Below are positions 47,125-63,544 of a stretch of DNA of 64,000 bases, piece after piece. A model generated the notes under the pieces. The model was given only the letters and a program-made list of their open reading frames with translations. It searched no databases and was not told the DNA's origin. The stretch lies in contig NZ_CP012981.1 of the NCBI RefSeq assembly GCF_001411495.1, positions 1 to 64,000 on the forward strand. The letters are read 5' to 3'. Source of the stretch: Burkholderia cepacia ATCC 25416. Its GTDB lineage: Bacteria > Pseudomonadota > Gammaproteobacteria > Burkholderiales > Burkholderiaceae. A program made the position numbers and the translations under genes. Each line of letters starts with the position of its first letter. Position 1 is the first letter of the stretch.

Positions 47125-47209
47125 GCCCAGGTGGTGAAATTGGTAGACGCAGGGGACTCAAAATCCCCCGCCGCAAGGCGTGCCGGTTCGATTCCGGCCC
47201 TGGGCACCA
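47125..47209 (+). tRNA. tRNA-Leu (anticodon CAA)
   Basis: An 85-base cloverleaf: acceptor GCCCAGG with CCTGGGC, anticodon stem GGGGA/TCCCC around CTCAAAA giving anticodon CAA, a variable arm CCGCAAGGCG-like, T-arm GGTTCGATTCC, and encoded CCA. The integrase gene 170 bases downstream makes its 3' end the likely integration site of the element. Confidence 0.97.
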
Positions 47210-47277: not shown

Positions 47278-47313
47278 CATTCCGGCAAAGTGCCGTGTGG
47301 TGCGTAGACAGCC

Positions 47314-47381
47314 GGGGGCAAGCGGGGGCAACATTGGGGGCAACCCATCCGAAATTGCCTTACCTGTCAGGAGTTGCCCCC
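47314..47381 (+). repeat. GGGGGCAA repeats before the integrase gene
   Basis: Three direct copies start at 47314, 47324 and 47336. An inverted copy, GTTGCCCCC, lies at 47373-47381 between the integrase ribosome-binding site and its start codon. The layout fits integrase arm-type sites or an autoregulatory operator. Confidence 0.5.
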
Positions 47382-48596
47382 GTGCCATTAACCGATACAG
47401 CCATCCGGAACGCCAAGCCTGCCGACAAGCCCGTGCGCCTGTTCGACGGAGGCGGCCTCTATCTGGAAATCGCCCCGAGCGGGGGCAAGTGGTGGCGCCT
47501 CAAATACCGATTTGGGGGCAAGGAAAAGCGCTACTCGCTCGGCGTCTACCCGGAAGTTACATTGGCGACCGCACGGAAGAAGCGCGACGAAGCCCGCGAA
47601 AAGCTCGCTGCCGGCATCGATCCGGGTGAAGCGAAGAAGGCGGAAAAAAGAGCCAGCCTGCTCGCAGCCGCCCATTCGTTTGAGGTTGTCGCTCGCGGCT
47701 GGATGGACGAGCGCAAGACGACCGTGGAACCAGCGCAGCATGCCAAGACGCTCGCCCGCATGGAGAACGATGTATTCCCATGGCTCGGCAAGCGCCCTAT
47801 CGCTGAAATCGACGCCCCGGAAATACTGGTCGTGCTGAAGCGCGTAGACGGGCGTGGAGCCAGATTTACCGCCCATCGCATCCGCAGCGAGATTAGCCGG
47901 GTATTCCGCTACGGCATCAAAGAGGGGCACTGCAAGGCCGATCCGGCCCGCGATCTGGTAGATGCAATCCCGCCCGCGCAGACAACACACTTTGCCTCAA
48001 TCACTGAGCCGGAGAAAGTGGGCGAGATGCTTCGCGCGTTCGACGGCTTCACAGGCACGTTCCCGGTTCTCTGCGCGCTCAAGCTAGCCCCCATGCTGTT
48101 CGTTAGGCCGGGCGAGTTGCGGAAGGCAGAATGGGCGCAATTCGACCTCGACAAAGGCGAATGGCGCTATTTCGTCAACAAAACGAAAACGGATCACCTT
48201 GTTCCGCTGGCCGCGCAGGCTGTCACGATTTTGCGCGAGCTTCACGCCCTGACTGGCGAAGGCGTCTACGTGTTCCCCGGTGCTCGCGACCGAAATCGGC
48301 CGATGAGCGAGGCCGCTATCAATGCAGCCCTTCGTCGGCTCGGCTACGACACTCGCACCGAGATTACCGGTCACGGCTTCCGGGCAATGGCACGGACGAT
48401 CCTGCATGAAGAGTTGGAGGAAAAGCCGGAAGTGATCGAGCACCAACTAGCGCATACGGTCCCTGACAGCCTTGGGCGGGCGTACAACCGAACAAAGTTC
48501 ATCAAGGCACGACGCTCGATGATGCAACAGTGGGCGGACTACCTCGACAAGATCAAAGCCGGGGTGGAAATCATTCCGATCGCGGCGGCAAGATAG
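47382..48596 (+). CDS. int: P4-type tyrosine integrase
   Basis: 404 residues. N-terminal DUF4102 arm-binding domain (PLTDTAIRNAKPADKPVRLFD), SAM-like core-binding part, and a C-terminal catalytic domain with Arg in VRPGELRKAEW, Lys in NKTKTDHLV, HGFR, HQLAH and the nucleophile Tyr in RAYNR. The family integrates satellites and islands at tRNA 3' ends, matching the adjacent tRNA-Leu. GTG 47382 is chosen because AGGAG lies eight bases upstream and the conserved PLTDTAI begins there; an upstream ATG would add 29 non-conserved residues. Confidence 0.93.
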   Translation: MPLTDTAIRNAKPADKPVRLFDGGGLYLEIAPSGGKWWRLKYRFGGKEKRYSLGVYPEVTLATARKKRDEAREKLAAGIDPGEAKKAEKRASLLAAAHSFEVVARGWMDERKTTVEPAQHAKTLARMENDVFPWLGKRPIAEIDAPEILVVLKRVDGRGARFTAHRIRSEISRVFRYGIKEGHCKADPARDLVDAIPPAQTTHFASITEPEKVGEMLRAFDGFTGTFPVLCALKLAPMLFVRPGELRKAEWAQFDLDKGEWRYFVNKTKTDHLVPLAAQAVTILRELHALTGEGVYVFPGARDRNRPMSEAAINAALRRLGYDTRTEITGHGFRAMARTILHEELEEKPEVIEHQLAHTVPDSLGRAYNRTKFIKARRSMMQQWADYLDKIKAGVEIIPIAAAR

Positions 48597-49212: not shown

Positions 49213-52089
49213 TCACAGCTCAAGCGTGAAGATGGACGGCAGTACGCGATAGACCATGAACTTGCCGTGACCGGGAATGTACTCCTGCCGGTACGGATAG
49301 CCGTCGCTACGCGGCATCAGCACACCCCGCTTCATCAGTGCCTTGGCTACGATCTTGTGATCGAAGCCGGCGCACACGTCTTTGCGGAACACGGCTGCTT
49401 CGATCAGGTACTCCGTCTCGACGCTTTCGGCATCGTCGGCGCTCATCTTGCCGCCGAACTCGGCGTAATACTCCCGATCGGAGGCGATGGGCGTGCGGCG
49501 CTCGTCGCGCTTCACGTGCTGCTTGAAGCCCGCTCGATGCGGCACGTTCGGCCGATGGTCGTCCTGCGCCCGGTTCATCCACACGAAACGGTTGTCGCCG
49601 TGCGCGGCGAGGAAATGCTGTACCTGCCGGACAGCTTCGGCCTCGTCCGAGTTGCCCGTGCCGCCGCGCAGTTCGAGCCAGCCTTCGAAGCAACGACGTG
49701 CGGCCTCGACCGCTTCGCCCTGCGGCCAGCCGGTCAGCCCGTGCGCCGTCGCCAGCTCGCCGGCCACCGCGACGAGGCAGAACCGCTTAGCGACGCGCGC
49801 GACCTGCGAATGGGAGCCGTCCGGCACCCACTGCCCGACCAGCTCGTCGACGCGCATGCGCAGATGCTCGGCCAGCTCGCCGGCCTGCGACGACGCCCAC
49901 TCGATAAACGCGGGGCCGGCCGTGCCGTAGTGCATGCCTGCGTGCCGCTCTAGATGCTCGATCAGCGCGGCCGGCGTCGGGAAGCCGTGCAATCTCTCCA
50001 CGACACCCATTTCGCCAACCTCGGCCGGGATCGCGGGCAGGCGCACCTCGATACCGCCTTTCATGGGCTTATTGCCCTCGGCCATCAGCGCGGACACGCT
50101 CTTTTCGCCGTTTGACAGGAACAGCAGTCGCCACGTGAGCACGGGCTTGGCCGAGCCGCTACGCGACGCGCGCGCCTTGCCCGACTCGTTCGCGAGCATG
50201 TAGATCACGTCTCCAACCAAGCGCGGCTCGACCTGCCCGATTTCATCAAGGATCAGCAGCGCGTCGCTATGCTGCGTGGCGACGGCTTCGAGCGCATTGT
50301 CGGTTGCCTTCCAGCTCCGCACGTAGTCCGGCGAGCCGAACACGGATGCGGCGATGACGCCGCCCGTCGACTTGCCCTTGGACGTCGTGCCGAGCAGGTG
50401 GAAGCCGCCCGACTGAAGCCCGGAGAAGTGCAGCAACGGACCAGCGAAGGCGGTAGCGACGCAGAACAGCAGCCGGCTATTGCCCACGCAGTAGGCAGCA
50501 ACCTCGCGTTGCCAGTCGTCCAGCGTGCCGCGCTCCTTGAACTGGCTCTGAATCGGCGTGTCGGCCTGATAGATCAGCGCCTCTTTGCCGGTGCCGATGA
50601 CGCGATCGGGCAGCACGAACGCGCCGTGATGCCAGCCGACGCGCGGCACGCAGCGCACGCGCTCGTCCGGCTGCGCCATCTGCACATAGTTCGCGATCTG
50701 CGTGCGGGCGATCTGCGTCACGCCAAGCTTCACGCCCATATCGAGCAGCATGCGGCGCAGTTCCGTACCGTCGCCGGCAAACAACCCGGCCGGCACCGCC
50801 CACCGTTTCAGGATGCCGTCACGGTCCGTGAATTCGAGCAGGTAGCCCCACTCGCTGTTCATCTCGTTTCGCGTCTCCGCGATCACGTCGATCCGCGTGC
50901 TGACCCAATGCGGCGGGAGCGGATCGCCCTGATTGTTGAAGCCGTGAAACCACACGCCCTTGTCGTCGACGACGAACCGCGACTTGCCGTCCTGCGCGCG
51001 GGCCGTTTTCGGACGCTTGGCGGGCTTCGCGGCGGGCAGTGCTGCCTTGGCCTTGCCGGGATCTGCCGAGCCGGCCGGCGCGAGCGCAGCGCGCACGGCG
51101 GCGGCCACCGCATCCGGGCCGAGGTGCGCAGCCAGGTCGTTGAAGTCGGTGCCGGCCGCTGGACGATTCGAGCCGAAGTCGGGCACGGCGACGATGCCGG
51201 CGACGGCCTCCGCCGCCGCGCGGGCCCTCGTCACGCCCGGATTGCCCTTCGTCGTGTGGTCGTCATCGGCGCAAACGACGATCCGGGCGTCCGGATACTG
51301 GCCGCGCAGCGTCGTCGCGACAGCGTGCAGGTTGCCGGCGTCGAACGCGACGGCGGCCGGATAGCCGGTCGCGGCCGCGATCGTCGCGCACGTGGCGTAA
51401 CCCTCGCCAATCAGTACCGTCGACGGCGCGGAAGATAGCGGGCCGCTGATCAACGAGAAGCAGCCGGCCTTGCGGCCGTTCGGCAGATAGCGTTTCTGGC
51501 CGTCCGTGAGGATGAATTCCAGCGTCCACAGCTTGCCGTCCGCGTCACGTGCCGGGATGACCAGTGCGCCGTCGCACGCGGCCGTGCCGATACACAAGCC
51601 GCCGCGATAGACGCGCAGCGCGTCGACCGGAATGCGCTTGCGAACGAGATAGGGGTGATCGGCCGGCGCAGGCTCGGCCGCCGACCAGATCGATTCAGCG
51701 AGCGCAGACGCGGCTTGCTGTTTCTCGATCAGCTCGGCCAGCTCGGCCGCTTCGCGGGCCGCACGTTCGGCCTTCTGCCGCTCGCGCTCCGCTGGATCGA
51801 CCGGCTTGGCCCGATGCGCGCGCGGATCGAAGCCGCCAAGCTTGGCGAGGTGGAACAGCGTGTTGATGGTGATCTTGCCGCCCTTGAACGACTTCCACAC
51901 ATCGCGCGCGTCCTTGCCGTTGTAGTTCTGCGCGCCTTGGCTCCATTCGTTCCAGAGGGCGAAGCCCTCCTCGTCAAACTCGGCCTTGAGCGCCATCCCC
52001 ACCTGACGCCATGTGTCGCGGTCGTCAGGCGGGACATAGCCGAGCGCGACTCTCGCCCGCTCGAATTCGGACATGGGTGCGTTACTCAT
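49213..52089 (-). CDS. primase/helicase of the integrated element (PriCT-Toprim-DUF927)
   Basis: 958 residues. Residues about 8-75 match a PriCT-2-like segment (WRQVGMALKAEFDEEGFALW). A Toprim-like primase region spans about 215-310 (VLIGEGYATCATIAAATG, VVCADDD). A DUF927 helicase region spans about 380-660 with Walker A TTSKGKST near residue 566 and Walker B LLILDEIGQ near 609. This is the replication protein type of P4-like satellites and islands. The C-terminal 250 residues carry a winged-helix-like part. ATG 52089 or ATG 52074 could be the start; neither has a strong ribosome-binding site. Last gene of a minus-strand operon. Confidence 0.9.
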   Translation of the reverse strand: MSNAPMSEFERARVALGYVPPDDRDTWRQVGMALKAEFDEEGFALWNEWSQGAQNYNGKDARDVWKSFKGGKITINTLFHLAKLGGFDPRAHRAKPVDPAERERQKAERAAREAAELAELIEKQQAASALAESIWSAAEPAPADHPYLVRKRIPVDALRVYRGGLCIGTAACDGALVIPARDADGKLWTLEFILTDGQKRYLPNGRKAGCFSLISGPLSSAPSTVLIGEGYATCATIAAATGYPAAVAFDAGNLHAVATTLRGQYPDARIVVCADDDHTTKGNPGVTRARAAAEAVAGIVAVPDFGSNRPAAGTDFNDLAAHLGPDAVAAAVRAALAPAGSADPGKAKAALPAAKPAKRPKTARAQDGKSRFVVDDKGVWFHGFNNQGDPLPPHWVSTRIDVIAETRNEMNSEWGYLLEFTDRDGILKRWAVPAGLFAGDGTELRRMLLDMGVKLGVTQIARTQIANYVQMAQPDERVRCVPRVGWHHGAFVLPDRVIGTGKEALIYQADTPIQSQFKERGTLDDWQREVAAYCVGNSRLLFCVATAFAGPLLHFSGLQSGGFHLLGTTSKGKSTGGVIAASVFGSPDYVRSWKATDNALEAVATQHSDALLILDEIGQVEPRLVGDVIYMLANESGKARASRSGSAKPVLTWRLLFLSNGEKSVSALMAEGNKPMKGGIEVRLPAIPAEVGEMGVVERLHGFPTPAALIEHLERHAGMHYGTAGPAFIEWASSQAGELAEHLRMRVDELVGQWVPDGSHSQVARVAKRFCLVAVAGELATAHGLTGWPQGEAVEAARRCFEGWLELRGGTGNSDEAEAVRQVQHFLAAHGDNRFVWMNRAQDDHRPNVPHRAGFKQHVKRDERRTPIASDREYYAEFGGKMSADDAESVETEYLIEAAVFRKDVCAGFDHKIVAKALMKRGVLMPRSDGYPYRQEYIPGHGKFMVYRVLPSIFTLEL

Positions 52090-52201
52090 AGGTTCCCACT
52101 GGACGCGCGTCGGCCGGCTTCCGATTAGTAGTCCATATCGGGCAAGCAGCTACCCGACGCGCGAAGAATTGAATGATGCGGCGATGCCTAGCGGCGGGAC
52201 G

Positions 52202-52528
52202 TTAGCCGGCCGCGCGAGGCACCGACAGAACCGCCCCGCCGGCCGTGACGTCGTTGCTGTAGACGTAGCGGCCGAGCCGCGACTCGCCAAGGGCGTCGTT
52301 GGCTGCCTCCAGCGCTGCGCCGATCGACGGCAGGGACGCGCGGAACAGGCTTAGCACAAGCCAGTAGTCGTCATCGGACATGGCCTTGTCGGCCGCCCAA
52401 TGCAGGCTGTCCAGCAGCTCCATGGCGTCACTGATCCGTGTGCCGATGCGGTTGCGGTCAGGACGGTTCACCTCAGCCACGAAGTGCGGCGCGAGCGGTT
52501 GCACGGCGTTCTTGTTCGTCTTTGCCAT
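52202..52528 (-). CDS. small element protein, function unknown
   Basis: 108 residues, soluble, mostly helical: DAMELLDSLHWAADKAMSDDD and LFRASLPSIGAALEAANDAL. GAGGGAC sits before ATG 52528. It lies nine bases after the previous gene and 112 before the primase, hence same operon. I do not recognise a family beyond similarity to small proteins of such elements. Confidence 0.7.
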   Translation of the reverse strand: MAKTNKNAVQPLAPHFVAEVNRPDRNRIGTRISDAMELLDSLHWAADKAMSDDDYWLVLSLFRASLPSIGAALEAANDALGESRLGRYVYSNDVTAGGAVLSVPRAAG

Positions 52529-52537
52529 GACCGTCCC

Positions 52538-52885
52538 TCAGTGCGTCGTGCGCGGTTCGCGCGTGACGAGGCCGAGCGCCGCGAACAGGTGTTGCTGTAC
52601 TCGCCCCATCAGGCCGGCCGCGAACGCTTGGCGGCTGATCGTCACGCGGTGCGCGTCGACGTCGCCCGCGTCCTGCATGGCGGATTCCATGCCGCGCGCA
52701 AACGCAGCGGCTTGATGCGCCGCGTAGTCGTGCAGGCGCACGTCGCCTTTCAGGTCGAGCCATGCGTCGGCGCAGATCGCGCCCAGGTCGACGGCGAATT
52801 GCAGCTCGATCGGAGCGCCGGTATCGAGCGGCGGTGCGTTGTCGAATCCGTTGATAACCGCGGTTCGGATGCGCTGATCAGTCAT
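52538..52885 (-). CDS. small element protein, function unknown
   Basis: 115 residues starting MTDQRIRTAVINGFDN, with an acidic helical middle (FAVDLGAICADAWLDLKGDV). A strong GGAGGT ribosome-binding site lies seven bases before ATG 52885, which selects this start in a longer frame. It overlaps the stop of the upstream gene by eight bases. No family recognised. Confidence 0.72.
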   Translation of the reverse strand: MTDQRIRTAVINGFDNAPPLDTGAPIELQFAVDLGAICADAWLDLKGDVRLHDYAAHQAAAFARGMESAMQDAGDVDAHRVTISRQAFAAGLMGRVQQHLFAALGLVTREPRTTH

Positions 52886-53090
52886 GGCACACCTCCGGTT
52901 GCGCAGTGCGGCGCATTTCGGCCGAATACCGGCTTGCGACGCCTTGCCCCATGTCGACGAGCGCGCGCTCGTAGGTGCCCTCCGCAAGATGCGAACGGAC
53001 AGCATCGAACAGGGCTTCGAGCTGGGCGAACTGATGGGCCGCACACATGGCGATCATCGTGACTTCGTTCGGCAGGCGGTATTTAGACAT
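52878..53090 (-). CDS. small element protein, function unknown
   Basis: 70 residues beginning MSKYRLPNEVTMIAMCAAHQF, helical, one Cys. GGAGGTG lies before ATG 53090. It overlaps its neighbours on both sides by eight bases, so the cluster is translationally coupled. No family recognised. Confidence 0.68.
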   Translation of the reverse strand: MSKYRLPNEVTMIAMCAAHQFAQLEALFDAVRSHLAEGTYERALVDMGQGVASRYSAEMRRTAQPEVCHD

Positions 53091-53385
53091 GGCGCACCTC
53101 CAGAATCGACGCGAGGAGTTGCCCGACATCGATCGTGCAATCCAGCTCCGCTTCGCCGCGAATCGGCGTGAGGTTCCAGTCATAGACGGCCGCGTGCTTG
53201 AAGTCGCCAGACCGGCGACCGCAGACGCTGCGCCCCGAGACGGGGCCGCCCAAGATCCGCACGCGCCAATCGTGATCGGGCGTCGGACGAGCCGATGCCA
53301 CCTCAACCAGCATACCGATGCGAGCGCGAGCGTCGCACTTCGTGACGATCGCCAGATCGCCAATCTTGCAGCGCAGCTCAGCCAT
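53083..53385 (-). CDS. small beta-rich element protein, function unknown
   Basis: 100 residues: CKIGDLAIVTKCDARARIGMLVEV and WRVRILGGPVSG suggest a small barrel (SH3-like) fold, seen in many phage and satellite genomes. GGGGGTG lies before ATG 53385. It overlaps both neighbours. The function is not known. Confidence 0.7.
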   Translation of the reverse strand: MAELRCKIGDLAIVTKCDARARIGMLVEVASARPTPDHDWRVRILGGPVSGRSVCGRRSGDFKHAAVYDWNLTPIRGEAELDCTIDVGQLLASILEVRHV

Positions 53386-53554
53386 GGCGCACCCCCGCAC
53401 GTACGAGCGCCGCGATTGCGGCCAGTGCCGCACCGGTTGCGTCGAGCGCGTCTTGATACGTGCTGGCGGTTGCTGCGTCGCGCAGTGCTGCGCGGACGAT
53501 GGATTGAATGAGGTGGGATTGCTGCCCGGTATGGGCGTGCGTGGACTGGCGCAT
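53378..53554 (-). CDS. small element protein, first gene after the folded leader
   Basis: 58 residues (MRQSTHAHTGQQSHLIQSIV...), helical. A perfect AAGGAGGT ribosome-binding site lies eight bases before ATG 53554. Part of that site falls in the closing stem of the leader RNA at 53567-53649, so its translation, and by coupling that of the cluster, may depend on RNA folding. Confidence 0.7.
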   Translation of the reverse strand: MRQSTHAHTGQQSHLIQSIVRAALRDAATASTYQDALDATGAALAAIAALVRAGVRHG

Positions 53555-53566
53555 TGAATGCGACCT

Positions 53567-53649
53567 CCTTGGACGGGTTGACGAACCCGGCCCCATCGCC
53601 AAATGGGGTGGCCGGGCACAAGGCAGGGTTGGCGAACCGGCGTCCAAGG
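53567..53649 (-). ncRNA. structured leader RNA, C4-antisense-RNA-like
   Basis: On the minus strand CCTTGGACG (from 53649) and CGTCCAAGG (to 53567) form a nine-base closing stem. Inside it three hairpins follow: GGTT-CGCC-AACC, a long one joining CCCGGCC/CCCCAT with ATGGGG/CCGGG, and GGGTT-CGTC-AACCC. This closed stem with three arms fits the C4-type antisense RNAs of phage and satellite immunity regions. The 3' strand of the closing stem contains the AAGG of the downstream ribosome-binding site. Frames open across this stretch are probably spurious 'Ash-like' ORFs. Confidence 0.6.
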
Positions 53650-53715
53650 GAACCGGCGTGCGCGAACGCACCCCCACCAAGGCCCGACCATAGAAGGCGC
53701 AAGGTGTACGGACGT

Positions 53716-53738
53716 AAAAAAACCGCGCGAAGGCGGTT
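53716..53738 (-). terminator. terminator in the leader of the small-gene operon
   Basis: AACCGC pairs with GCGGTT across six bases; on the minus strand five further T follow. It lies between the promoter at 53799-53827 and the folded RNA at 53567-53649, so it may act as an attenuator. Confidence 0.6.
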
Positions 53739-53798
53739 GTCCGCCTTGGAGCATCTCCGGTCGCCAAACCGGGTCACTGTTGTCTCAGCGACGCGCAC

Positions 53799-53827
53799 AG
53801 AATACCGCGCGATGCTGGACGACGCAA
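53799..53827 (-). promoter_or_regulatory. possible promoter of the primase operon leader
   Basis: On the minus strand TTGCGT (53827-53822) and TATTCT (53804-53799) are separated by 17 bases. The match to sigma-70 consensus is moderate. A CAAAG-N3-CTTTG site lies 34 bases upstream. It fits the P4 pattern of a promoter followed by a terminated immunity leader. Confidence 0.4.
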
Positions 53828-53860
53828 ATCGCGACGCCCCTCGTCGTGTATTGCCTAGTG

Positions 53861-53873
53861 CAAAGCGACTTTG
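53861..53873. promoter_or_regulatory. CAAAG-N3-CTTTG palindromic site (copy 2)
   Basis: CAAAGCGACTTTG, sharing the ten outer bases with copies at 49132 and 54712. Placed between the gene at 53882 and the operon leader. Confidence 0.5.
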
Positions 53874-53881
53874 GGGAAGCA

Positions 53882-54406
53882 TCAGGCGGCCTCCCCCTTG
53901 AGCACGGCGGTCGCCAGCTTGAGCTGTTCGATATCCAGTCGCGAGCTGCCCTGCGCCAGTGATTGGCCGAGCGCGACGCCCCGCAGCAGGGCGCTAACTT
54001 GCAAGCGGCGCGTCCCGTCCGTGCACTGCGCATCGATGTCGTTGTAAAGCGCACGATAGGCTTTCCGCAGCTGTCGATACTGCCGACGACGATAGTTCGC
54101 GGAATCCTGTTCAGCAGCGGCGATCGCCCGGACGAACTTCTCGCAGGCGGTGCCAAGTTGCTTTGTCGTCAGGCGCGGGGCTTCGAGCGCGAGCGTCGAG
54201 GCGAGCGTGACGGCGATCGCTACGAGTTTCCCGGTGTCGTCGCCACGGTTCCAGAAGCAACCCTCGATGTCATCGAGGATTCCTGCGAGCTTGCGGAGTC
54301 GGGCGTCGCGGCAACGCACGAACGCGGCGTCGCGCGCCGTGACGGCCGCGCCCATCGCGCGACCATACGGGCCGCCTCGATCGATCATAAGGGAGGGCGC
54401 GCTCAT
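53882..54406 (-). CDS. element protein of unknown function
   Basis: 174 residues, largely helical and basic in the middle (SANYRRRQYRQLRKAYRALYNDID). ATG 54406 has GGGAG upstream and is fused to the AlpA-type gene stop (ATGA). No family recognised. Directly downstream of the regulator, so probably an early gene of the element. Confidence 0.72.
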   Translation of the reverse strand: MSAPSLMIDRGGPYGRAMGAAVTARDAAFVRCRDARLRKLAGILDDIEGCFWNRGDDTGKLVAIAVTLASTLALEAPRLTTKQLGTACEKFVRAIAAAEQDSANYRRRQYRQLRKAYRALYNDIDAQCTDGTRRLQVSALLRGVALGQSLAQGSSRLDIEQLKLATAVLKGEAA

Positions 54407-54594
54407 GCCTGCTCCCGTGTGGACTGACGGGATTCGAGCCATTGCTGGACGTCGGTCGCGCGCCAGCCGACGCTCCTGGCCCCTAACTGGACCGGTGCTG
54501 GAAACTTGCCTTCGCGAATCCAGCGATACAGCGTTGTTTTCTTGACGCCGACGCAATCCAGCACACCAATAAGTCGAAGAATCTTAAGAGCCAT
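54403..54594 (-). CDS. AlpA-family DNA-binding regulator
   Basis: 63 residues with a MerR/AlpA-type helix-turn-helix: VKKTTLYRWIREGKFPAPVQLG followed by VGWRATDVQQWLESR. Such proteins control excision or replication genes of P4-type islands. The start at 54594 begins the conserved part; the longer frame is not conserved. Copy 3 of the palindromic site lies about 120 bases upstream and an inverted repeat (CCGTAC...GTACGG) at 54654-54672. Confidence 0.85.
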   Translation of the reverse strand: MALKILRLIGVLDCVGVKKTTLYRWIREGKFPAPVQLGARSVGWRATDVQQWLESRQSTREQA

Positions 54595-54711
54595 TTTCCG
54601 TTCAGAAATGGCCTGTTCCGCAAGAAGGAGGAAAGCGGCAGCAATAAACCACGCCGTACTATCAAAGTACGGGCGCAATAAAGTTTGCGGAAGACGCACA
54701 AAGTAATCTTG

Positions 54712-54724
54712 CAAAGTTACTTTG
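54712..54724. promoter_or_regulatory. CAAAG-N3-CTTTG palindromic site (copy 3) upstream of the AlpA gene
   Basis: CAAAGTTACTTTG, exact reverse complement of copy 1. An imperfect copy, CAAAGTAATCTTG, abuts it at 54699-54711, giving a tandem pair typical of a repressor operator. Confidence 0.55.
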
Positions 54725-54828
54725 CACGGCGCGCCGTGCGCGGTATCATTCGTCCTAACAAGAGCTATGCGTTTCCTAGGCGCGGTGGCTCTTGTTGTTC
54801 CTCCAATTATGGAACAGGCAGCCAAGCC

Positions 54829-54870
54829 AAAAAATCGCCGGCGGGATGTGTTGGTAGCACATCCCCCGGC
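54829..54870 (-). terminator. strong minus-strand terminator with no adjacent gene
   Basis: GCCGGGGGATGTG pairs with CACATCCCGCCGGC (one bulge) and on the minus strand TTTTTT follows. Nothing coding on that strand lies between here and the HEPN gene end at 55412. It may end a long 3' region of that gene or a small RNA. Confidence 0.6.
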
Positions 54871-55142
54871 ACCCTCTCGTCAGCTCGACGAAATATGCTC
54901 AGCGACTGAGCATTCCCCGCCTTTTCCCTTGCATCGCCCACTGATTCCTAGAGCCGTGTTCGATTAGGTGCCAACAAGTACCGTCATTATATCGAAAGGT
55001 CTGCCCCCATAAAAGATTTGTCTCGGATTATCTAAGATCGCAATACATGGTGTCACTGTTCGGCCATTAAGAGTCGTTCGGTCACTTTAAAACCCGTAGT
55101 TCGAATGGCGGCCCTCCTCCCGAGAAACGGCGTAGCAACGAT

Positions 55143-55256
55143 GCGCAGCATCTGCCGGAGCGGCATCGCATGATGCAATGGTGGAGGGACTTCCTCGACC
55201 AGCAGAGTGGAGCGAACGTTAAACCGATAGACGCCGGCACACCTCGCGCTGCCTGA
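55143..55256 (+). pseudogene. relic C-terminus of a second P4-type integrase
   Basis: The plus-strand frame reads ...HLPERHRMMQWWRDFLDQQS... and stops at 55254-55256. It matches the tail of P4-type integrases, compare SMMQQWADYLDKIKAG in the intact integrase at 48.5 kb. Upstream the similarity ends at about 55143 with no catalytic domain, so only about 37 codons survive. It marks a former integration or recombination junction. The rest of 54871-55411 holds no gene I can support. Confidence 0.65.
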
Positions 55257-55411
55257 CTATTTGCAGGGTGCCAGGAACTGAGTCGTCGGCCACTTCGGTG
55301 CAGGCGACTTTTTTGGGAATGTACGTCGATTTCCGTGGATGTCGCTCACCGATCCACAAGAGACGGCGCATGAAATTTCGCCCTCCGCCCGAAGGAAAAA
55401 ATCACCCATCG

Positions 55412-56542
55412 CTAGAACGGAATATCGTCATCCATCTCGTCGAAGTCAGGTGAAGCCTTAAATTCATCAACAGATTTAATAAGATCCTTACTCCACACCC
55501 CCTTTTCCCATGGAGAATAGACGGTGAGTGCCGCATGGAATCTTTCGCTTCCATTTCGAATTCTCGTCTTAAAGACAATATCGAGCGTAGCTGGAATCGA
55601 ACTATGCAAATCCCCTATGGCCGGGAACAAATACTGAAATACATAATCTTCCTCCGCCCGATTTCCGGAGCGAAGTTTATCCGTGATCGCACCGAGCATC
55701 TCGCGCTTGAGAGTGAAATGAGGGAACAAATTTCTCGCCCAAGTACCTAGACCACCGCTGCGACAGACCTTTTGTTTCGAGTCGAAACGCCCCTCCTGAA
55801 CAGATCGCACAAGTTTATGTTCTATTCTCAGACGCGATACCTCCGCGAGTCGTGGCCAGATATCACCTCCCAAAGAACCAATCACCGCACGAACCGTCGC
55901 ATCATCGTCGGTTGTCTTTAGTTCATCAGAGATAATCTGATCGACTTGGATCCGCTCATCGACAGTAAGCGTGGGCAACAATGCGTTAAAAAAATGACGC
56001 AAATGATCCCCTTTGACCGTCTCCTTTTCTCTATACGCATCCAAAAACACCTCAAGGCGCTGCCCAACTGGCACATCTTCCACCAAGAGTTCTGCATATC
56101 GCGAATTTGGAACGAAATCAGGATCTAGGACGCGTCGAATAAAATCATGCCTCGAAAATTGCGACTTGGCTTTGTCGATCTGCCGGACAAGATATCCGGT
56201 AAAAAGAATCAAAATACGCGCATCGTTCTCCGTGTCAGATATTTTTTCATGACTGCGAGGATTACGGAATGCTTGATAGAAACCACGAAGTAGTTGTTCT
56301 ACACCCTTCTGTACATTCCATTCAGATTCGCTTTGCAACCTGTTGAGCTTGATTTTAGGTGCCGCCCCACCCAGAGCCTGCCCCACCAGCGACGCACCGT
56401 CTCCCTCTGCGCCCGACTTTTGACGAAGCAATTCGCTGAGAAAATAGAAGGCATCTAAAATCGACCCAGTAAAATTTCCTCTCTCGTAATTGGCCCTTAC
56501 CGCTTCCCACAAATCCTCCGGTACATTGGTCTCAAGGTTCAT
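55412..56542 (-). CDS. HEPN/Ymh (TIGR02391-like) protein with an SSB-type C-terminal tip
   Basis: 376 residues, A+T-richer than the core genes. Residues 1-110 match the Ymh/TIGR02391 family: NYERGNFTGSILDAF, GDGASLVGQALGG, and RNPRSHE, which is the R-x4-H motif of HEPN ribonuclease domains. Residues 110-365 are a domain I do not recognise. The last residues are DFDEMDDDIPF before a TAG stop, almost identical to the SSB tail peptide DFDDDIPF that docks chi, RecO, RecQ, PriA and exonuclease I. HEPN proteins are frequent toxins in abortive infection; a defence role here is inference supported by the mobile context and the neighbouring dGTPase. The start ATG 56542 is unambiguous in the frame. Confidence 0.82.
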   Translation of the reverse strand: MNLETNVPEDLWEAVRANYERGNFTGSILDAFYFLSELLRQKSGAEGDGASLVGQALGGAAPKIKLNRLQSESEWNVQKGVEQLLRGFYQAFRNPRSHEKISDTENDARILILFTGYLVRQIDKAKSQFSRHDFIRRVLDPDFVPNSRYAELLVEDVPVGQRLEVFLDAYREKETVKGDHLRHFFNALLPTLTVDERIQVDQIISDELKTTDDDATVRAVIGSLGGDIWPRLAEVSRLRIEHKLVRSVQEGRFDSKQKVCRSGGLGTWARNLFPHFTLKREMLGAITDKLRSGNRAEEDYVFQYLFPAIGDLHSSIPATLDIVFKTRIRNGSERFHAALTVYSPWEKGVWSKDLIKSVDEFKASPDFDEMDDDIPF

Positions 56543-56813
56543 TTTCGCGCTTCCACTCGTTGTTTTAGGGAATTTTCGTTATGCAGTTTTATGCGCCTTG
56601 GTCATGCGGTCTCGAAACCGCGACGCTGATATGGCACCCTCTTTGCCTGCCGTTTCGCTTGATAGGCGGGTTTAAAGCGCGCTTGGCGGCCCTAGCTCTC
56701 CGGCCCTTGGAGGTTAGATCCAATGTATCTTGCAGCGCGCGGGAATTATGAGCTTCGGGGCGGAGATATCTATTGGGCACGCACATCACCCTGAAACGCA
56801 TTTCAGTGGCCAG
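56543..56813. other. gap between the HEPN and dGTPase genes
   Basis: 271 bases without a gene. CTGAAACGCATTTCAG (56791-56806), a six-base inverted repeat just after the dGTPase stop, could end that transcript. The HEPN gene therefore probably has its own promoter in this AT-rich stretch, although none is clear. Confidence 0.4.
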
Positions 56814-58211
56814 CTAAAGCGGTTTGAACATCGATGCTCCTCGACCGAATAGGCGATCGTGCACTTCCGCAGCATATGCATCGGTCATGCACGCGACATA
56901 GTCGCAAATCAAGCGCGCGCGATTGGGCTTGCTGGAACCGACGGAATCGTACCTTTCTTTCCAATCATCTGGGAGGAGCGCACCTTTGGATTTCCATAGG
57001 GCGTTAAATATATCCGTTACGAGATCGCGGCCGCGATGTTCCACTACCGCAAGGCGAGAGGAGCGAATAACCAACTCGTAGTTCAAGTGCTTGAGGATTT
57101 CAACCTTGATCAATCCGTCTCGCGTTAATCGCACTGAGGATAATTGCGGATACTCCTGATTCAGAATCAGCTCAACCGAGTCGAGAAGCTTTCCTATTCT
57201 TTCAGCAGTGAATCTGGTGCGCATCAAACCACTCTCGTTGAGCATGCGGTTTGCCGCCCAAAAATGCAGTTCGCGCTGCTCAGATTGAGCTGTTGCCAAG
57301 TCAGTGTTAGCGAGGTCTTCGAAGATGTGCTCCAGCGTCGAAATTGCTTCAGCAGCTCCATCCAGTTCTTCGTGCCCTGATTTTTCTAGTGCTTTGTTGC
57401 ACTTTCGGAGTACTTCAGCTTGAAGAGCGTTATTGGTCCGAAGCGCATATTGCAAGCTGAACGGTGAAACAAAACTCGCGTGAAGCGAATCTTCCAAGTC
57501 GTAAGTCGAATATGCGATATCGTCGGCTAAATCCATGATCGAGCATTCGACGGTCTTGAAGTCGCGGCCCTTATAGCCGGGAGCAACAGCTCCTTTGACA
57601 CGCCTGACTATGTCTCCTTCCGTGTAATAGTAGCCCTTTTGCAATTCATCGTTCTTCGGACGTTGGGCCTCGATCGGGTGATCGTACTTAATGACTGCGG
57701 CCAATGCCCGATTCGTGATGTCCAGCCCGAATTCCGAGCTGAATCCTTCCGGGGTGCGCACGAGCTTTCTCTCGACAGACGTAAGGATCCTCAGCGTTTG
57801 GGCGTTTCCTTCGAAGCCTCCATGCTTCAGCATCAGGACATCTAGCGCCTTTTCGCCGTTGTGCCCAAACGGCGGATGCCCGAGATCGTGTGCTATCGCA
57901 GCAAACTGCACTAAATCGGTATCTATTTTTTCGCCACCGAGTTCATTGGCAAACTTGGCGTTGATTGTTGCAGCGATTCCACATGCGATCTGCGCGACTT
58001 CCAAGGAGTGAGTCAGACGATTCCGGAAAAAGTCCGACTCCATTCCAGGGAAGAGCTGGGTTTTGCCCTGGAGTCGCCGGAACGACGGAGCATGGAGTAA
58101 GCGGGCATAGTCTTTCCTAAAGGGGCTCCAGCCGTGCTCCCTCTCGGAATCCATACCATTGGCGCCACTCAGGCGCATATAGTCCCCGTCGCTGTATAGT
58201 TTTTTTCGCAT
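56814..58211 (-). CDS. dgt: deoxyguanosinetriphosphate triphosphohydrolase (dGTPase, HD superfamily)
   Basis: 465 residues. HD-domain dNTP triphosphohydrolase releasing tripolyphosphate: FRRLQGKTQLFPG, NRLTHSLEVAQIACGI, the metal-binding HDLGHPPFGHNGE and DLADDIAYSTYDLEDS are all intact. Dgt homologues can deplete dNTPs and block phage replication; in this mobile cargo a defence role is plausible but could also be housekeeping. ATG 58211 fits the family N-terminus (MRKKLYSDGDY) but lacks a ribosome-binding site; ATG 58178 has GGGGA upstream and is the alternative. A+T-richer than the core genes. Confidence 0.9.
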   Translation of the reverse strand: MRKKLYSDGDYMRLSGANGMDSEREHGWSPFRKDYARLLHAPSFRRLQGKTQLFPGMESDFFRNRLTHSLEVAQIACGIAATINAKFANELGGEKIDTDLVQFAAIAHDLGHPPFGHNGEKALDVLMLKHGGFEGNAQTLRILTSVERKLVRTPEGFSSEFGLDITNRALAAVIKYDHPIEAQRPKNDELQKGYYYTEGDIVRRVKGAVAPGYKGRDFKTVECSIMDLADDIAYSTYDLEDSLHASFVSPFSLQYALRTNNALQAEVLRKCNKALEKSGHEELDGAAEAISTLEHIFEDLANTDLATAQSEQRELHFWAANRMLNESGLMRTRFTAERIGKLLDSVELILNQEYPQLSSVRLTRDGLIKVEILKHLNYELVIRSSRLAVVEHRGRDLVTDIFNALWKSKGALLPDDWKERYDSVGSSKPNRARLICDYVACMTDAYAAEVHDRLFGRGASMFKPL

Positions 58212-58238
58212 AAAAAAAGCCAAGCGATAGCTTGGCTT
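58212..58238 (-). terminator. terminator between the small basic gene and dgt
   Basis: AAGCCAAGC pairs with GCTTGGCTT (loop of 4); seven T follow on the minus strand and run to the ATG at 58211. Partial read-through would be needed for co-transcription with dgt. Confidence 0.75.
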
Positions 58239-58255
58239 CCTACGTCGGTTAATCC

Positions 58256-58447
58256 TTAGCGCAAAGGCTTGCTCTTTTTCGTTTGCGCAGCCACGGCTTG
58301 CTTCGTTCCGCTTGTCGCGGTTCGCTTTCCATGTGTCGACTGTGCTTGATTGCTACCACTCAAGCGTTGCGCCACGAGCGTATGTGCATACTGAAAGGCT
58401 AGCGAGCCACCGTTGCCAGCCATTGTGGTGGCGGGTTTCTTCGTCAT
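58256..58447 (-). CDS. small basic protein upstream of dgt, function unknown
   Basis: 63 residues, Lys/Thr/Ser/Gln-rich with a basic tail (TKKSKPLR), middle segment GNGGSLAFQYAHTLVAQRL. GGGGA lies before ATG 58447. No family recognised. It is immediately upstream of dgt on the same strand and could be a partner or independent. Confidence 0.6.
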   Translation of the reverse strand: MTKKPATTMAGNGGSLAFQYAHTLVAQRLSGSNQAQSTHGKRTATSGTKQAVAAQTKKSKPLR

Positions 58448-59024
58448 GTCAATCCCCGGTTGTTGCGCTGCAAGTATACGCGCAGACACGGTCTCGTGCG
58501 ATCGGTTCAATCTGCTCTTAAAAAATACTTCCGTCAATCGGATGCTAGCCCGAGCGTCTCGGCCAATGGTGAAATTAGGGGCAAATCTGGTACGTCAGAA
58601 ATAGGGGTTGATACCCCATGAATGCAGTGCACGAAGGGGACTATGCCGGACCAATACCGTCAACCCTCGGCATTCGTGACCGACTTTCTCCTTGGAGGTC
58701 GTTGGAACAAGAGGCTCGAACGGCAGTTCATTGGCCAGCATCGGAAGTCCAGTGAAGAAGTTCCCGACCGCGATCGCTGCAAAGCGGCTGAGGTGTCACA
58801 CCTCGAACGACCGCAACGAGTCGGTTGTTGTCGTTCGAATAGTGGCACCTTCCTGTCCATCCCAGCGACCGACCAGAAGGCAATCGACCTCCAATCCAAC
58901 GAGCCTGTCCAAAACCGATCCCTTGCGGACAGGGGCATTTTGCCCTGTCCGGAAATAAGGGTTGAAATGTTTTGGACATTGCCTTACATTCGGACATCTA
59001 TTTCGTACAGATTGAGTGCCCGAT
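58448..59024. other. gap with palindromes and a candidate resolvase site
   Basis: 577 bases with no supported gene. It holds GAGGTGTCACACCTC at 58790-58804 (perfect palindrome around C) and, at 58926-58951, a near-perfect inverted repeat CGGACAGGGGCA / TGCCCTGTCCG. Several further TGTCC/GGACA elements lie up to the resolvase start, as expected for a res recombination site of a serine resolvase. Confidence 0.45.
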
Positions 59025-59600
59025 ATGTCCCGAACCTTTGCCTATGCCCGCGTCAGTACGTCCGACCAGACCCCCGCGAACCAGTTACGAGAGATCGAGG
59101 CGGCCGGCTTCTCGGTCGACAAGCGCCGCGTTGTGTCGGAAAGCATTTCGGGGAGCGTAAGCGCCGATCAGCGGCCGGGGTTTGCGCAGTTGCTCGTCAA
59201 GATGGAAGAAGGCGACGTGTTGATCGTGACGAAGCTCGATCGACTCGGCCGCAATGCGATGGACGTGCGGGCCACGGTCGAGGGATTGGCCGAACGCGGT
59301 ATCCGGGTTCATTGTCTCGCCCTGGGCGGCGTAGATCTGACGAGCGCGGCCGGCCGGATGACGATGCAGGTATTGAACGCGGTGGCCGAATTCGAGCGGG
59401 ATCTGTTGATTGAGCGCACGCACGCTGGTATCGCTCGCGCGAAGGCGGAAGGCAAGGCGATGGGGCGGCCGTCCGCCCTGTCGGACGAGCAGCGGGCGGA
59501 CGTGCTGCGCGAGTTGGACGCGGGGACAAGCGTGGCCGCGCTTGCTCGGCGATTTGGCACGAGCCGCCAGACGATCATGCGGGTACGCGACGCAGTCTAA
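59025..59600 (+). CDS. serine recombinase / Tn3-type resolvase
   Basis: 191 residues. Catalytic domain: [15 protein letters not shown] with the nucleophile Ser near residue 10, [13 protein letters not shown] and [16 protein letters not shown]-terminal helix-turn-helix [21 protein letters not shown]. No transposase gene accompanies it, so it may be a resolvase or invertase left by a transposon, or part of the island. ATG 59025 starts the conserved region; a GTG nine bases upstream is less likely. Confidence 0.92.
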
Positions 59601-60015
59601 GCGGCGCGCGCCGTTCAACTCACGCCCTGCTAGAGCCCGGCTCACTGGGTGGTGGAGCGAGCAGCTTATAGGGCGCGAGGCGGTGCATGCGCGGTTCCGG
59701 GTTGGATATCGGTCCGCATTGCCCAAATGGCAGCACTCAGAGATGCGTCATGTCTCTCATCTGTATAAGACTGGACCAGACCAAGCAAACAGTGTCGGGT
59801 TGTCTGGCTCGGTTCGGCCAGAACCCGCCATTCGACACGGACACCAAGATCGCCGACGATCGCATCACCGACAAGGGCGATACCCTGGTGGACGCCTCTG
59901 GAGACAAGGGAAATGCTGCGCAGATTGCGCTCGGCATATCCCAAGCCTTTCGAGCTCGGCCTCCGCGAGCGCACGCCCGCTTTTTCGTTCGCCTGATTGC
60001 AGAGCTCGTCTGCTT
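59601..60015. other. gap after the resolvase, nothing convincing
   Basis: 415 bases. A 110-codon plus-strand frame (59687-60019) overlaps the next gene and has no recognisable protein or ribosome-binding site. It may be decayed sequence. Confidence 0.4.
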
Positions 60016-61335
60016 TTAGGGCGTAAGCGTCCGGGTGACTGCACGGAATACGCCCGGCTCCAGCGCAATGTCGCTCTCGTGGCTTGCTGGTGCGGCGGCG
60101 AAGACACGCCAAAATCCTCCGTTTGCCGCGAGAACATGCGCGCGAACGGTTATGGCTTCCGTGGAATCTGACGCCACACCTGCGCCGCTTCCAGTCCAGA
60201 CCTGACCAGCGTCATCCGCAACGACGCTGCCGTTCCGGATTACTGCGAGCGTGGGATTTCCCTTCAGCAGTGCGTCGGCATACTCATCCAGACCGACGTT
60301 CGCAGCCTCAAAGCCTACGCCAACAACCACCTGATTCGTCGCGTCGGCATACAGCCATGTGTTCGGTGGGAGGTTGCTGCTCTGAGGCAACAGCCGCCAG
60401 CCTGCTGGCAAAATGGTTGCCGTTTGACGGGTCAGGGGATTCTGCCAACTGACTGGCGGGAGGTTCTGAGTGTCTTTCTGGCGCTGCTCTTCCATCCTCC
60501 CGTAGCCCAACGCCGCAATGAAAGCCAAAAACAACGCTAAAGCGGTGAGATAGTGGCCAAACTTGCGAGGCGCCCGAGAAACACGGCAACCGTACTTAAT
60601 GTCCCAACTGGTGCGCTTGCCGCCCAATAGGGCCCGATAGCTCGCGAGTTCGGTGAAAAGTGCCACGATTGGGATACCCAATCCGATGCCTCGAATCCAG
60701 ACGTCGACGCTGCGCGCGGCGTACGTGCGCGCAGGCAGCGGAGCACAATCGAGCATCTGCACCTTAACGCCAAGCAAGCCCTTGCCTATCGAGTTGCCAA
60801 AAGCGGCGTAGACCAGAACGTCGCACACGATGGCAATCGGGATAATCAGGATTCCACTGAGCATGTCCTGAGACGACGACGGCATGTCTGCGAACGCGAG
60901 CAGAGACCACCCGAATCTTGCGTTCAGGATTCCGACCACGAACCCCACCACTAGTGACCAGATGTACAGGTCTAGCGTACGGGCAAAAAACCGACGCCAT
61001 GGACCTGCAAGCGGCGACGCAACCGTCGAAGGCGCCCAATCCTGCGCCAACTCGTCCGGAGCACCCTTCATCACGGTCATCGCGATTGCTCCAGCGGGCT
61101 CTGGACCTGTCGGGGCTGCGATCGGGGTTGCGGCCTCTACCCGCCCTGCCCGCTGCCGAAACACTCCCGCCAGAACCCAACCAATGCCCCAAAAGACACA
61201 CAGCGGAATTAGCCCCAGCACCGCGAAGGCCGCGCCCGAAAAGCTGCTGTCTCCGTAGGAAAGGGCGTATGCGACAACTGCCCACACTACAGATATCACG
61301 ACTGCCAGCCGAAGCGGCCACTTGGTTTCTCTCAT
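60016..61335 (-). CDS. RDD-family membrane protein
   Basis: 439 residues. Two N-terminal membrane helices (residues about 8-60), an RDD domain at about 110-225 (RRFFARTLDLYIWSL, GNSIGKGLLGVKVQ), another helix near 265-285, and a C-terminal extracytoplasmic part of about 150 residues without a recognised family (NPLTRQTATILPAGWRLLP...). RDD proteins are membrane proteins of varied, mostly unproved transport or stress roles. Its G+C and codon use are closer to the core than the HEPN gene. Confidence 0.82.
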   Translation of the reverse strand: MRETKWPLRLAVVISVVWAVVAYALSYGDSSFSGAAFAVLGLIPLCVFWGIGWVLAGVFRQRAGRVEAATPIAAPTGPEPAGAIAMTVMKGAPDELAQDWAPSTVASPLAGPWRRFFARTLDLYIWSLVVGFVVGILNARFGWSLLAFADMPSSSQDMLSGILIIPIAIVCDVLVYAAFGNSIGKGLLGVKVQMLDCAPLPARTYAARSVDVWIRGIGLGIPIVALFTELASYRALLGGKRTSWDIKYGCRVSRAPRKFGHYLTALALFLAFIAALGYGRMEEQRQKDTQNLPPVSWQNPLTRQTATILPAGWRLLPQSSNLPPNTWLYADATNQVVVGVGFEAANVGLDEYADALLKGNPTLAVIRNGSVVADDAGQVWTGSGAGVASDSTEAITVRAHVLAANGGFWRVFAAAPASHESDIALEPGVFRAVTRTLTP

Positions 61336-61695
61336 GCGGTCCCCCAGAGTGGTTTGCTTATTGTTGTGACCACCAATCTACTGGCTCGCCTCTGCGAAGT
61401 AAATCGTCTGAAAAACGTATACGGGCCGGCTGCCGAATGGCCGCTTCGTGGAGTCACGAGTGGCCGCCCTGGGTCGATCTGCGCCGGGCGGCGGCCAGCC
61501 GAGTTCGGCCATGAGGCGTCAGTCGCCGGTACAGTCACTCGGACGCGTGGACGTCCGTTCCTCACTTGCAAGCGGCCATTTGGATGGCGATCCGATCGTC
61601 TCAGTCGCCGGGAGTCCTTCGCTAGCGCGCAGGAGCCGTCCTTTCAAACGGAAAGCCGATCGCCGGCGCCCTCTACATACCGCTCAGAACTTGCC
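61336..61695. other. 360-base gap, no gene seen
   Basis: G+C-rich sequence with repeated GCGGCCATT-like words but no supported coding frame, terminator or repeat array. It could contain the right end of the integrated element, but no copy of the tRNA-Leu 3' end is visible here. Confidence 0.4.
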
Positions 61696-62553
61696 CTAGC
61701 TTTGTCGGTCTCGACAGCGCTCGAGCTCACGCATCAACTGATGCATTTCATGTTGTCGCCCGAGATGCCAGTCGGTCACGATGTTGAACAACCCTCGCGT
61801 CCACGAAAACGGTGCCCACCGGAACGGGACGACGATGCGCGGTTGGCGGGCTCGCAGCCCTTTTATGACGGCCTTAGCGACGTCATCCGGTTGTATCGGT
61901 CGTCGCAACGGTGCAGGAAACCCTTTTTCAATCAATTTCGTCGCTAGCGCATTTCCGCCAAAGCCGACCTTGGCAATGGCTGTCGCCACCCATCCCGGAT
62001 AAAGCACGCTCGCCGTGGACCCGGTGCCGCCCAGTTCGGCGCGCAGTGAACGCCCGAGCATCTCGACTGCGGCTTTGGACGCTGCGTAAGGCGCATTCAC
62101 CATGCCGTTCACGAATGCGTAGGCCGATGAGGTGACCAGGACCTGGCCTCGATTGCGCAGAATCTCCGGCAATGCGGCCTTGACCGTGCGCCAAACCCCG
62201 AGCAGATCGACCTCGACGATTCGCTCGAACTCCTGTTCATCGCAGCTGTACATGGTGGCGGGTAGATCGTGCCACGAGATGCCAGCATTGGCGAACGCAA
62301 TGTCGAGGCGACCGAATCTATCGACGGCGCGTTGCACGACCGCCTTGGTGGCGGCAGCATCGGTGACATCGAGCGCCAAGGCGAGCGTGCGCTCGGAGTC
62401 AAACTCCGCGGCGAGGCGGTCCACTGAAGCCTGCGTCACATCGGTTAGAACAAGTCGTGTTCCACATGCATGCAACGCACGCGCGGTCGCAGCGCCAATG
62501 CCGCCTGCAGCACCCGTGATAAGCACGACTTTTTCCTGAAGATCGTAAGCCAC
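61696..62553 (-). CDS. short-chain dehydrogenase/reductase
   Basis: 285 residues. Classical SDR: cofactor loop TGAAGGIGAATARAL near residue 14, NAGIS, Ser in VTSSAYAF, and catalytic YAASK. Substrate unknown. GTG 62553 is preferred because GAGGAG lies eight bases upstream and the SDR fold starts right after; the longer frame adds non-conserved residues. Last gene of a run with a second SDR and a hydrolase. Confidence 0.88.
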   Translation of the reverse strand: MAYDLQEKVVLITGAAGGIGAATARALHACGTRLVLTDVTQASVDRLAAEFDSERTLALALDVTDAAATKAVVQRAVDRFGRLDIAFANAGISWHDLPATMYSCDEQEFERIVEVDLLGVWRTVKAALPEILRNRGQVLVTSSAYAFVNGMVNAPYAASKAAVEMLGRSLRAELGGTGSTASVLYPGWVATAIAKVGFGGNALATKLIEKGFPAPLRRPIQPDDVAKAVIKGLRARQPRIVVPFRWAPFSWTRGLFNIVTDWHLGRQHEMHQLMRELERCRDRQS

Positions 62554-62674
62554 TTTGTACTGCTCCTCTGCTATTGGTTTTCCATTGCTGCGCAAACAAG
62601 GGGCGATGGATGCCGGGTCATCGGCTCCGCAGATCATGCGAAGCCGATCGGTTCCCGCGGCCACCGATTGCCAT

Positions 62675-63544
62675 TCATTTCGCCGGAGCGTTCGCGGCCG
62701 AATCGTTCCAGCCAGTTGCCGATGCCAGACTGATGGCGCGTTCAATGTCCCCGCCGCGAAAGCCGGCGCGTTCGACGAAGCGCCTGAAGAAGCCGGGCGC
62801 CTTGGCCACGATCGTGTTGATCTTGGGTACGACGATCATGTCCGCGCGGCGCTCGATGCCTGCCACGATGTCCCGCACGACCTGCTCGCGCGGGATCATC
62901 TTCCAGAAGCCTCGATCGTTGCCTCCCCACAATGCACGGCCGGCCGGATCGGCGACGACATCGTCCATCAGCGGCGTCGGGAAGAACGTCGGATGCGCGC
63001 TGCCGACCCCGATACCCAGATGACGAAGCTCCAGACGGATGCTGTCGCACATCGCCCACACGCCCGCCTTGCTGGCCGTATAGGACGCCTGTAGCGGCGA
63101 ATGTACAAACGCGGCCATTGACGAAATCGCCAGCATGTACCCGCGCTGTTGCTGGACGAATGGCAAGCCGGCACGGAACGTACGCCACACGCCGTTGAGG
63201 TTGATGTCGATGACACGATCAAACGCGGCCGGGTCGAGGGTGGCCATGGGGGCCATGGTGTCGATGCCCGCGTTGGCGATGACGACGTCAACCTGACCGA
63301 AGTGATGCGCCGCATTGGCCATTGCGGCTTCGAGGCTTTCGAAATCGCGGACGTCGGCAGTCCAGCCAAGAACGTCAGAAGGGCGGCCGAAGCTGCGAGT
63401 TTGCGCCGCGAGCCTGTCTGCCTCCAGGTCGAAAAGTGCGAGGCGCGCACCCCGTGCGTGCAGCGCTTCGGCCAAGGCCGATCCCAGGCCTCCGGTGGAA
63501 CCGGTAATGGCCACCACCTTGTTCGCCAGCTTATAAGTCGACAT
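62675..63544 (-). CDS. short-chain dehydrogenase/reductase
   Basis: 289 residues. Cofactor loop TGSTGGLGSALAEAL near residue 15, NAGID, ISSMAAF and catalytic YTASK. The C-terminal part (RRADMIVVPKINTIVAKAPGFF) is typical of SDRs found in operons with flavin monooxygenases and hydrolases. Overlaps the hydrolase gene upstream by 14 bases. Confidence 0.9.
   Translation of the reverse strand: MSTYKLANKVVAITGSTGGLGSALAEALHARGARLALFDLEADRLAAQTRSFGRPSDVLGWTADVRDFESLEAAMANAAHHFGQVDVVIANAGIDTMAPMATLDPAAFDRVIDINLNGVWRTFRAGLPFVQQQRGYMLAISSMAAFVHSPLQASYTASKAGVWAMCDSIRLELRHLGIGVGSAHPTFFPTPLMDDVVADPAGRALWGGNDRGFWKMIPREQVVRDIVAGIERRADMIVVPKINTIVAKAPGFFRRFVERAGFRGGDIERAISLASATGWNDSAANAPAK

Follow-up and report, generated by a model that had tools for sequence, protein, structure and literature searches.

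The window analysed here is a 64,000-nucleotide stretch of the Burkholderia cepacia ATCC 25416 genome. On its minus strand, at 55412..56542, it carries an ATG-initiated coding sequence for a 376-residue protein formed of a Ymh/HEPN domain, a helical repeat and an SSB-type tail, and ending ...FKASPDFDEMDDDIPF immediately before a TAG stop codon. The preliminary description of this DNA had reported the reading frame with an SSB-like end directly before the stop, as well as a Ymh/HEPN N-terminus bearing RNPRSH, and both were recovered here. The Ymh domain (PF09509, Hypoth_Ymh) covers residues 8-122 (56177..56521, minus strand) and scores 93.4 bits against a Pfam cut-off of 25, with TIGR02391 also matching at 65.5 bits (cut-off 39.45); PF09509 is the sole Pfam match at E ≤ 0.1, and the OB-fold PF00436 is absent. 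Catalytic-type motifs of HEPN domains follow the pattern R-X4-6-H, and RNPRSH at residues 93-98 (56249..56266, minus strand) is of the R-X4-H type, with R93 and H98 at the two defining positions; it is a predicted RNase motif. R93-NPRS-H98 is unchanged in all 98 rows of our main homologue alignment (A1), and R93, N94, P95, R96 and H98 are also invariant across a smaller alignment of 11 rows (A3). The domain is followed by an α-helical repeat body at residues about 127-360 (55463..56164, minus strand), a variable linker at residues 361-370 (55433..55462, minus strand) and, overlapping the end of the linker, the tail FDEMDDDIPF at residues 367-376 (55415..55444, minus strand). In the structure model residues 370-374 have a pLDDT below 50, and the C-terminal tail is predicted to be disordered. 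The same genome encodes a second Ymh/HEPN protein (L021; G000:C1:3231748-3232083, minus strand), which has a different N-terminal part and lacks an SSB tail.

A tRNA-Leu gene (47125..47209, plus strand) forms the edge of an island and is followed by the tyrosine integrase of the island (47295..48596, plus strand), a DUF927/PriCT_2/Toprim primase-like gene (49213-52089), an AlpA-like regulator (54403-54825), the HEPN gene, an adjoining dGTPase-like gene for an HD phosphohydrolase (56814..58223, minus strand) and a resolvase (59016-59600). The dGTPase-like gene matches the PADLOC dGTPase at 391 bits, TIGR01353 above its cut-off, and NF041026 (antiphage_dGTPase, NCBIfam) at 359 bits, which is below the cut-off of 400. 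GC content is 0.50-0.54 in four 1-kb bins at 55-59 kb versus 0.59-0.70 in the other bins between 44 and 64 kb, and the HEPN gene and its neighbours resemble cargo carried by an integrative element. The right end of the island was not located, as a search of 47100-64000 for direct repeats of the tRNA end, 16 bases or longer, gave none. Elsewhere in the window, the gene for DNA polymerase III chi (HolC) that the preliminary description had placed at 33582-33998 (minus strand) was confirmed at 136.8 bits.

We also considered a two-gene system with the dGTPase, or another conserved operon partner, and rejected it, as the dGTPase gene does not recur beside relatives elsewhere. Across 21 regions (open reading frames of at least 80 residues; some loci of 3-5 kb) no gene apart from the query's own family was present in more than three, and the dGTPase-like neighbour was therefore treated as island co-cargo, which it probably is. 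The 112 neighbour genes at the other loci included, among the matches listed, some that match MADS, DISARM, PD-T4-6 and type II methyltransferase models, together with many housekeeping genes, a survey made without a control set.

Comparison of the tail with the SSB of the host showed a close match. The genome (8.6 Mb, four contigs) contains one SSB match, this SSB ends GGGFDEMDDDIPF, and its last ten residues, FDEMDDDIPF, are identical to those of the 376-residue protein. Codons for DDIPF followed by a stop occur at two places in the whole 8.6 Mb, the gene at 55412-56542 and ssb, with 0 places for the reversed control pattern in the same scan. Between the two genes, three of the ten codons for these residues are different (counted by eye), each by a synonymous change, which makes selection on the peptide a simpler reading than recent copying of DNA. 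The likeness to an SSB tip seen in the preliminary description is thereby borne out over ten residues, although its comparison with the E. coli-type end DFDDDIPF was too loose, the match being to the tip of this host's own SSB.

A homologue search returned 347 proteins, and C-terminal ends were counted on the 120 listed of these, or on the 104 listed that have at least 369 residues. Alignment A1 was built from the window's protein with 97 of the listed homologues; the other 23 of the 120 are mostly fragments or of odd length, and include P0001, which is nearly identical, and P0068 (377 residues). A C-terminal Phe is present in 113 of the 120 and Pro-Phe in 108. The preliminary description had proposed to see whether the acidic end is conserved while other parts vary, and had named homologues lacking the tail as evidence against its reading; all 104 of the longer listed homologues end in Phe, 100 of them in PF (the remaining four each retaining the terminal Phe), 95 in [DE][ILV]PF and 69 in DDIPF. 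Of the regions compared in A1 (98 rows), the tail (371-376) has the lowest mean column entropy, 0.66 bits; the HEPN domain (8-122) follows with 0.95, the repeat body (127-345) with 1.74, the linker (361-370) with 2.33 and residues 346-360 with 2.46. As a control, [DE]xPF was found within the last 12 residues of 0 of 35 open reading frames matching only in the HEPN part, a set that includes L021. Single listed homologues have other ends, namely DDDIVF or DDDIIF instead of PF in P0044, P0047 and P0051, and SSLF in P0068. The nearest named homologue, P0083, is 85% identical over 59% of the query.

According to the portion of PMC10711431 available to us, Pseudomonas SSBs end in the nine residues DSFDDDIPF, and four of the five Pseudomonas-named listed homologues have a Phe at position -7 as in that SSB: P0063 (P. 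orientalis; YDPFDDDIPF), P0045 (YDPFVDDIPF), P0037 (YEPFIDDIPF) and P0087 (YDPFDDDVPF), the fifth, P0052, being 332 residues long and without such an end. This Phe is absent from the SSB of the window's genome. However, position -7 is most often Phe across A1 as well (38 of 98 rows), so the likeness of the Pseudomonas tails says little.

We next compared tails and SSBs genome by genome. Relatives were present at 16 loci in 15 genomes of our collection, and the SSB genes of each genome were retrieved; both ends could be read in 14 genomes, spread over about ten phyla; four of these genomes are Chloroflexi and two (L003 and L006) come from one phylum. Outside this set were L002, where the SSB is cut off, L016, where the protein is cut off, L012, which shares the genome of L010, and G315 and G352, whose relatives belong to another subfamily and whose SSB tip is that of the window's genome. 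Each tail was scored, with no shift allowed, against the SSB tip of its own genome (the best-matching SSB paralogue) and against the tips of the other genomes, using a statistic devised once some of these genomes had already shown the pattern. Over the last ten residues there were 74 identities versus 48.0 by shuffling (sd 4.8; P about 1e-5), a value reached in 0 of 200,000 shuffles in one run and 2 of 200,000 in another. The last six residues taken alone gave 56 versus 40.7 (P 6e-4) and the ten positions preceding them 25 versus 14.5 (P 0.004). Leaving out the window's genome gave 64 versus 42.9 for the last ten residues (P 6e-5) and 20 versus 13.7 for the positions preceding the last six (P 0.04). 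Confining the shuffles to two main gene-tree clades (13 genomes, without L006) gave 69 versus 44.2 (P 1e-5), and to four smaller clades of the same 13 genomes 69 versus 47.3 (P 4e-4), while exclusion of L006 by itself gave 69 versus 43.7 (P 1.5e-5). With one SSB per genome, chosen by best SSB-family score instead of best-matching paralogue, the result was weaker (63 versus 42.2, P 2.5e-4), and addition of L012, G315 and G352 gave 82 versus 58.6 (P 1e-4).

Of 13 genomes, nine had a tail nearer to the SSB tip of the host than to the tail of the nearest relative in the set; in two the distances were equal, and in two the tail was further from the SSB tip. The own-host SSB was the sole best match in five of the 14 genomes and tied for best in three, and the SSB of another host scored higher in six (L004, L005, L006, L007, L010 and L015), the scores of 0 for L010 and L015 being due to the unshifted count, as both tails run past PF. 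Examples of tail and SSB ends are ...HEEDDIPF and ...HEEDDIPF at L011, FNPDDEIPF and FNPDDDIPF at L003, and ...EEVPF and ...EEEEVPF at L007. This pattern indicates that the tail mimics the SSB of its host, not SSB in general.

An SSB a few residues longer than its PF end is unusual. Two of the 14 hosts have one (not counting paralogues without PF), ending ...DLPFDLK in the genome of L010 and ...GDIPFGE in that of L015, and the relatives that extend beyond PF are found in exactly the same two hosts (...DIPFEN and ...DIPFGTS, respectively), a coincidence noticed after the fact that by our own arithmetic has a probability of 1 in 91. These two cases, in which SSB and Ymh protein both run past PF, come from a Chloroflexi genome (L010/L029) and a Clostridia genome (L015/L031). 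In the metagenome-assembled genome of L006 the gene (L006:1366-2511) is interrupted by one in-frame TAA, and the tail beyond the stop is intact.

A host-matched acidic tip with a Phe end was thus a feature of the window's protein and of the 14-genome set overall, and was not found in two relatives of another subfamily from the window's own genus, which do not copy the SSB tip of their hosts. The G315 relative (L047:1501-2667) is full length and ends NENDIAF, perhaps a degenerate, decaying tail, and the G352 relative (L048:1468-2328) has no HEPN domain and consists of the repeat body with a NEEDDIPF end; in both genomes the SSB ends FDEMDDDIPF.

The full-length family is rare. Among 65 genomes of the genus a full-length match was found only in the window's genome and G315, with the HEPN-less match in G352, and the only such full-length match among 274 genomes of the class was the window's own. 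No new full-length pair came from samples of the phylum (398 genomes) or of the phyla of L011 (400), L009 (132) and L003 (395), and beyond the genomes already known all samples together added only G315 and the partial G352. In viral contigs there were 14 pattern matches, with no relative among them, and 91 plasmid records had a match, one covering at least 80% of the query with a protein ending VDLPF.

Phage records gave two matches, both tail-less. This relative, present in two P2-like phage records, shares 30% identity with the query over 89% of its length (tblastn) and ends LLGQIS, whereas the window's protein has the tip. Of 5426 E. coli genomes, 52 contain it at an identity of at least 99%. 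In the P2-like phages, including the one E. coli genome inspected, it has gpA (replication) on one side and the portal gene on the other (L045:7974-9125 and L090:5001-6152, in P2-like prophages). The accessible part of PMC9122126 describes the same gpA-gpQ position as a hotspot for anti-phage cargo, occupied in P2 by old and tin. The body therefore does not always need the tail and, as its tail-less form occurs in a defence setting, the tail resembles an add-on for targeting or sensing.

Considered together, these observations make it very likely that the tail imitates the tip of the host SSB and that selection has maintained this likeness. The reading that we favour, with moderate confidence, is that the gene encodes a stand-alone HEPN effector which imitates the host SSB tip, probably against phage, and uses it either as a dock on SSB partners or as phage bait. 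A ribonuclease-type effector carried by a mobile island would, on its helical-repeat body, present a flexible C-terminal peptide resembling the tip of the host's own SSB, and through this peptide would engage the readers of that tip. According to the available text of PMC10018359, the C-terminal end of SSB, a nine-residue tip, is where its partners bind, and phage annealing proteins of the RecT type show host-specific recognition of the seven C-terminal residues of host SSB (PMC10711431, as far as accessible), so a copy of the tip on a HEPN protein can meet either. The protein could be stationed on SSB partners of the host where single-stranded DNA is exposed; alternatively, the tip could lure phage proteins that have adapted to the tip of the host SSB, such as RecT/Red-beta annealing recombinases. 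Engagement of the tip would then bring or trigger the RNase domain, most likely in anti-phage defence of the abortive-infection type. Here the binding, the RNase activity, the defence and the trigger are all inferred. We consider it likely that the tail docks on SSB-reading proteins, and somewhat less firmly that the protein is an anti-phage effector; that the tail is bait specifically for phage proteins is a tentative suggestion. Tracking of the host is expected under both docking and bait, and while bait best explains a match that reaches beyond the core residues, sequence alone cannot separate the two. SSB tips on their own also do not explain the performance of annealing proteins across strains, according to the part of PMC10714826 available.

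Other explanations were weighed against this reading. The SSB likeness could be accidental or derive from recent copying of the 3' end of ssb, as SSB tips are alike in many bacteria and mismatched pairs in our shuffles share on average 48 of 140 positions. However, the shuffling tests, including those within gene-tree clades, the two DDIPF-stop sites in the genome and the synonymous differences in 3 of 10 shared codons all argue against this, and chance or shared descent is disfavoured as very improbable. It is also improbable, if less extremely so, that an acidic tail covers the RNA-binding surface of the protein by folding back onto it, with its SSB likeness incidental; the tail is acidic and predicted to be disordered, and Hfq is autoregulated by acidic C-terminal domains (PMC5606850, in the part accessible), yet such self-inhibition predicts neither a fixed Pro-Phe end nor tracking of the host SSB.

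The tail itself could be the weapon, titrating SSB partners and halting host or phage replication, and with ten residues identical to the host SSB tip it should compete well, but this would require protein levels like those of SSB, and the invariant HEPN motif suggests that catalysis is needed; we regard competition as rather unlikely. A housekeeping role, in which the tail takes a HEPN RNase to forks or repair sites via SSB partners, for example to clear RNA at stalled forks, with no part in defence, is the least improbable of the four, although still unlikely. Both the matching of the tip to the host and the binding of the nine-residue SSB tip by SSB partners (PMC10018359, available text) agree with it, whereas the patchy distribution (full length in 2 of 65 genus genomes plus the HEPN-less G352, and the window's own only among 274 of the class), the low-GC island setting and the location of a relative in a phage defence hotspot do not. 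The interpretation in the preliminary description holds in part, its HEPN domain, SSB-type tail and tail conservation (Phe end in all 104 listed homologues of at least 369 residues) being retained, and to it we add that the tail tracks the host's own SSB.

For members of the Ymh HEPN family (PF09509/TIGR02391), Anantharaman et al. 2013 (PMC3710099, accessible part) describe links with restriction-modification operons as well as fusions to paraMORC, AbiJ-NTD1 and AbiTii. The window's protein shares with them a HEPN domain scoring above cut-off and a predicted RNase motif, and differs in its architecture, with the HEPN domain at the N-terminus ahead of a helical repeat and an SSB tip; "SSB" occurs 0 times in the main text of PMC3710099 as available. 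With bacterial SSB C-termini it has in common the last ten residues (those of the host SSB), the Phe end and disorder in the model, but it has no SSB domain. Nhi, Hachiman and retron Eco8 likewise tie defence to SSB biology, although they are thought to sense phage SSB, whereas the window's protein copies the tip of the host SSB (PMC12904381, accessible part). AbiK and Stl2 target phage recombinases, and phage annealing proteins are a possible trigger in the bait model as well; they are nevertheless different proteins, compared here by description only, and no SSB tail is described for them in the available part of PMC11846896. The P2 hotspot cargo old and tin (PMC9122126, accessible part) shares its position with the tail-less relative. 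The preliminary description knew of no system combining a HEPN protein with an SSB tip, and our literature search, mostly of freely accessible papers, likewise found no description of one.

Phage SSB is the presumed cue, or phage recombinases the presumed target, of several defence systems, and a protein that wears the tip of the host SSB would follow a different logic. We raise, as a tentative proposal, a single-gene immune class in which a host-specific SSB tip baits phage annealing and replication proteins, whose use of host SSB depends on adapting to its tip, and so fires a HEPN ribonuclease, the tail being re-tuned whenever the gene moves into a new host. Under the bait model such a sensor would be hard to escape, since phages cannot alter their contact with the tip without losing the host SSB. 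If true, this would be mimicry of a host hub that phages must engage, re-tuned for each host, and would explain how a single gene could watch DNA replication. It would also provide a search rule, namely to look for defence genes whose last residues are those of the host SSB tip.
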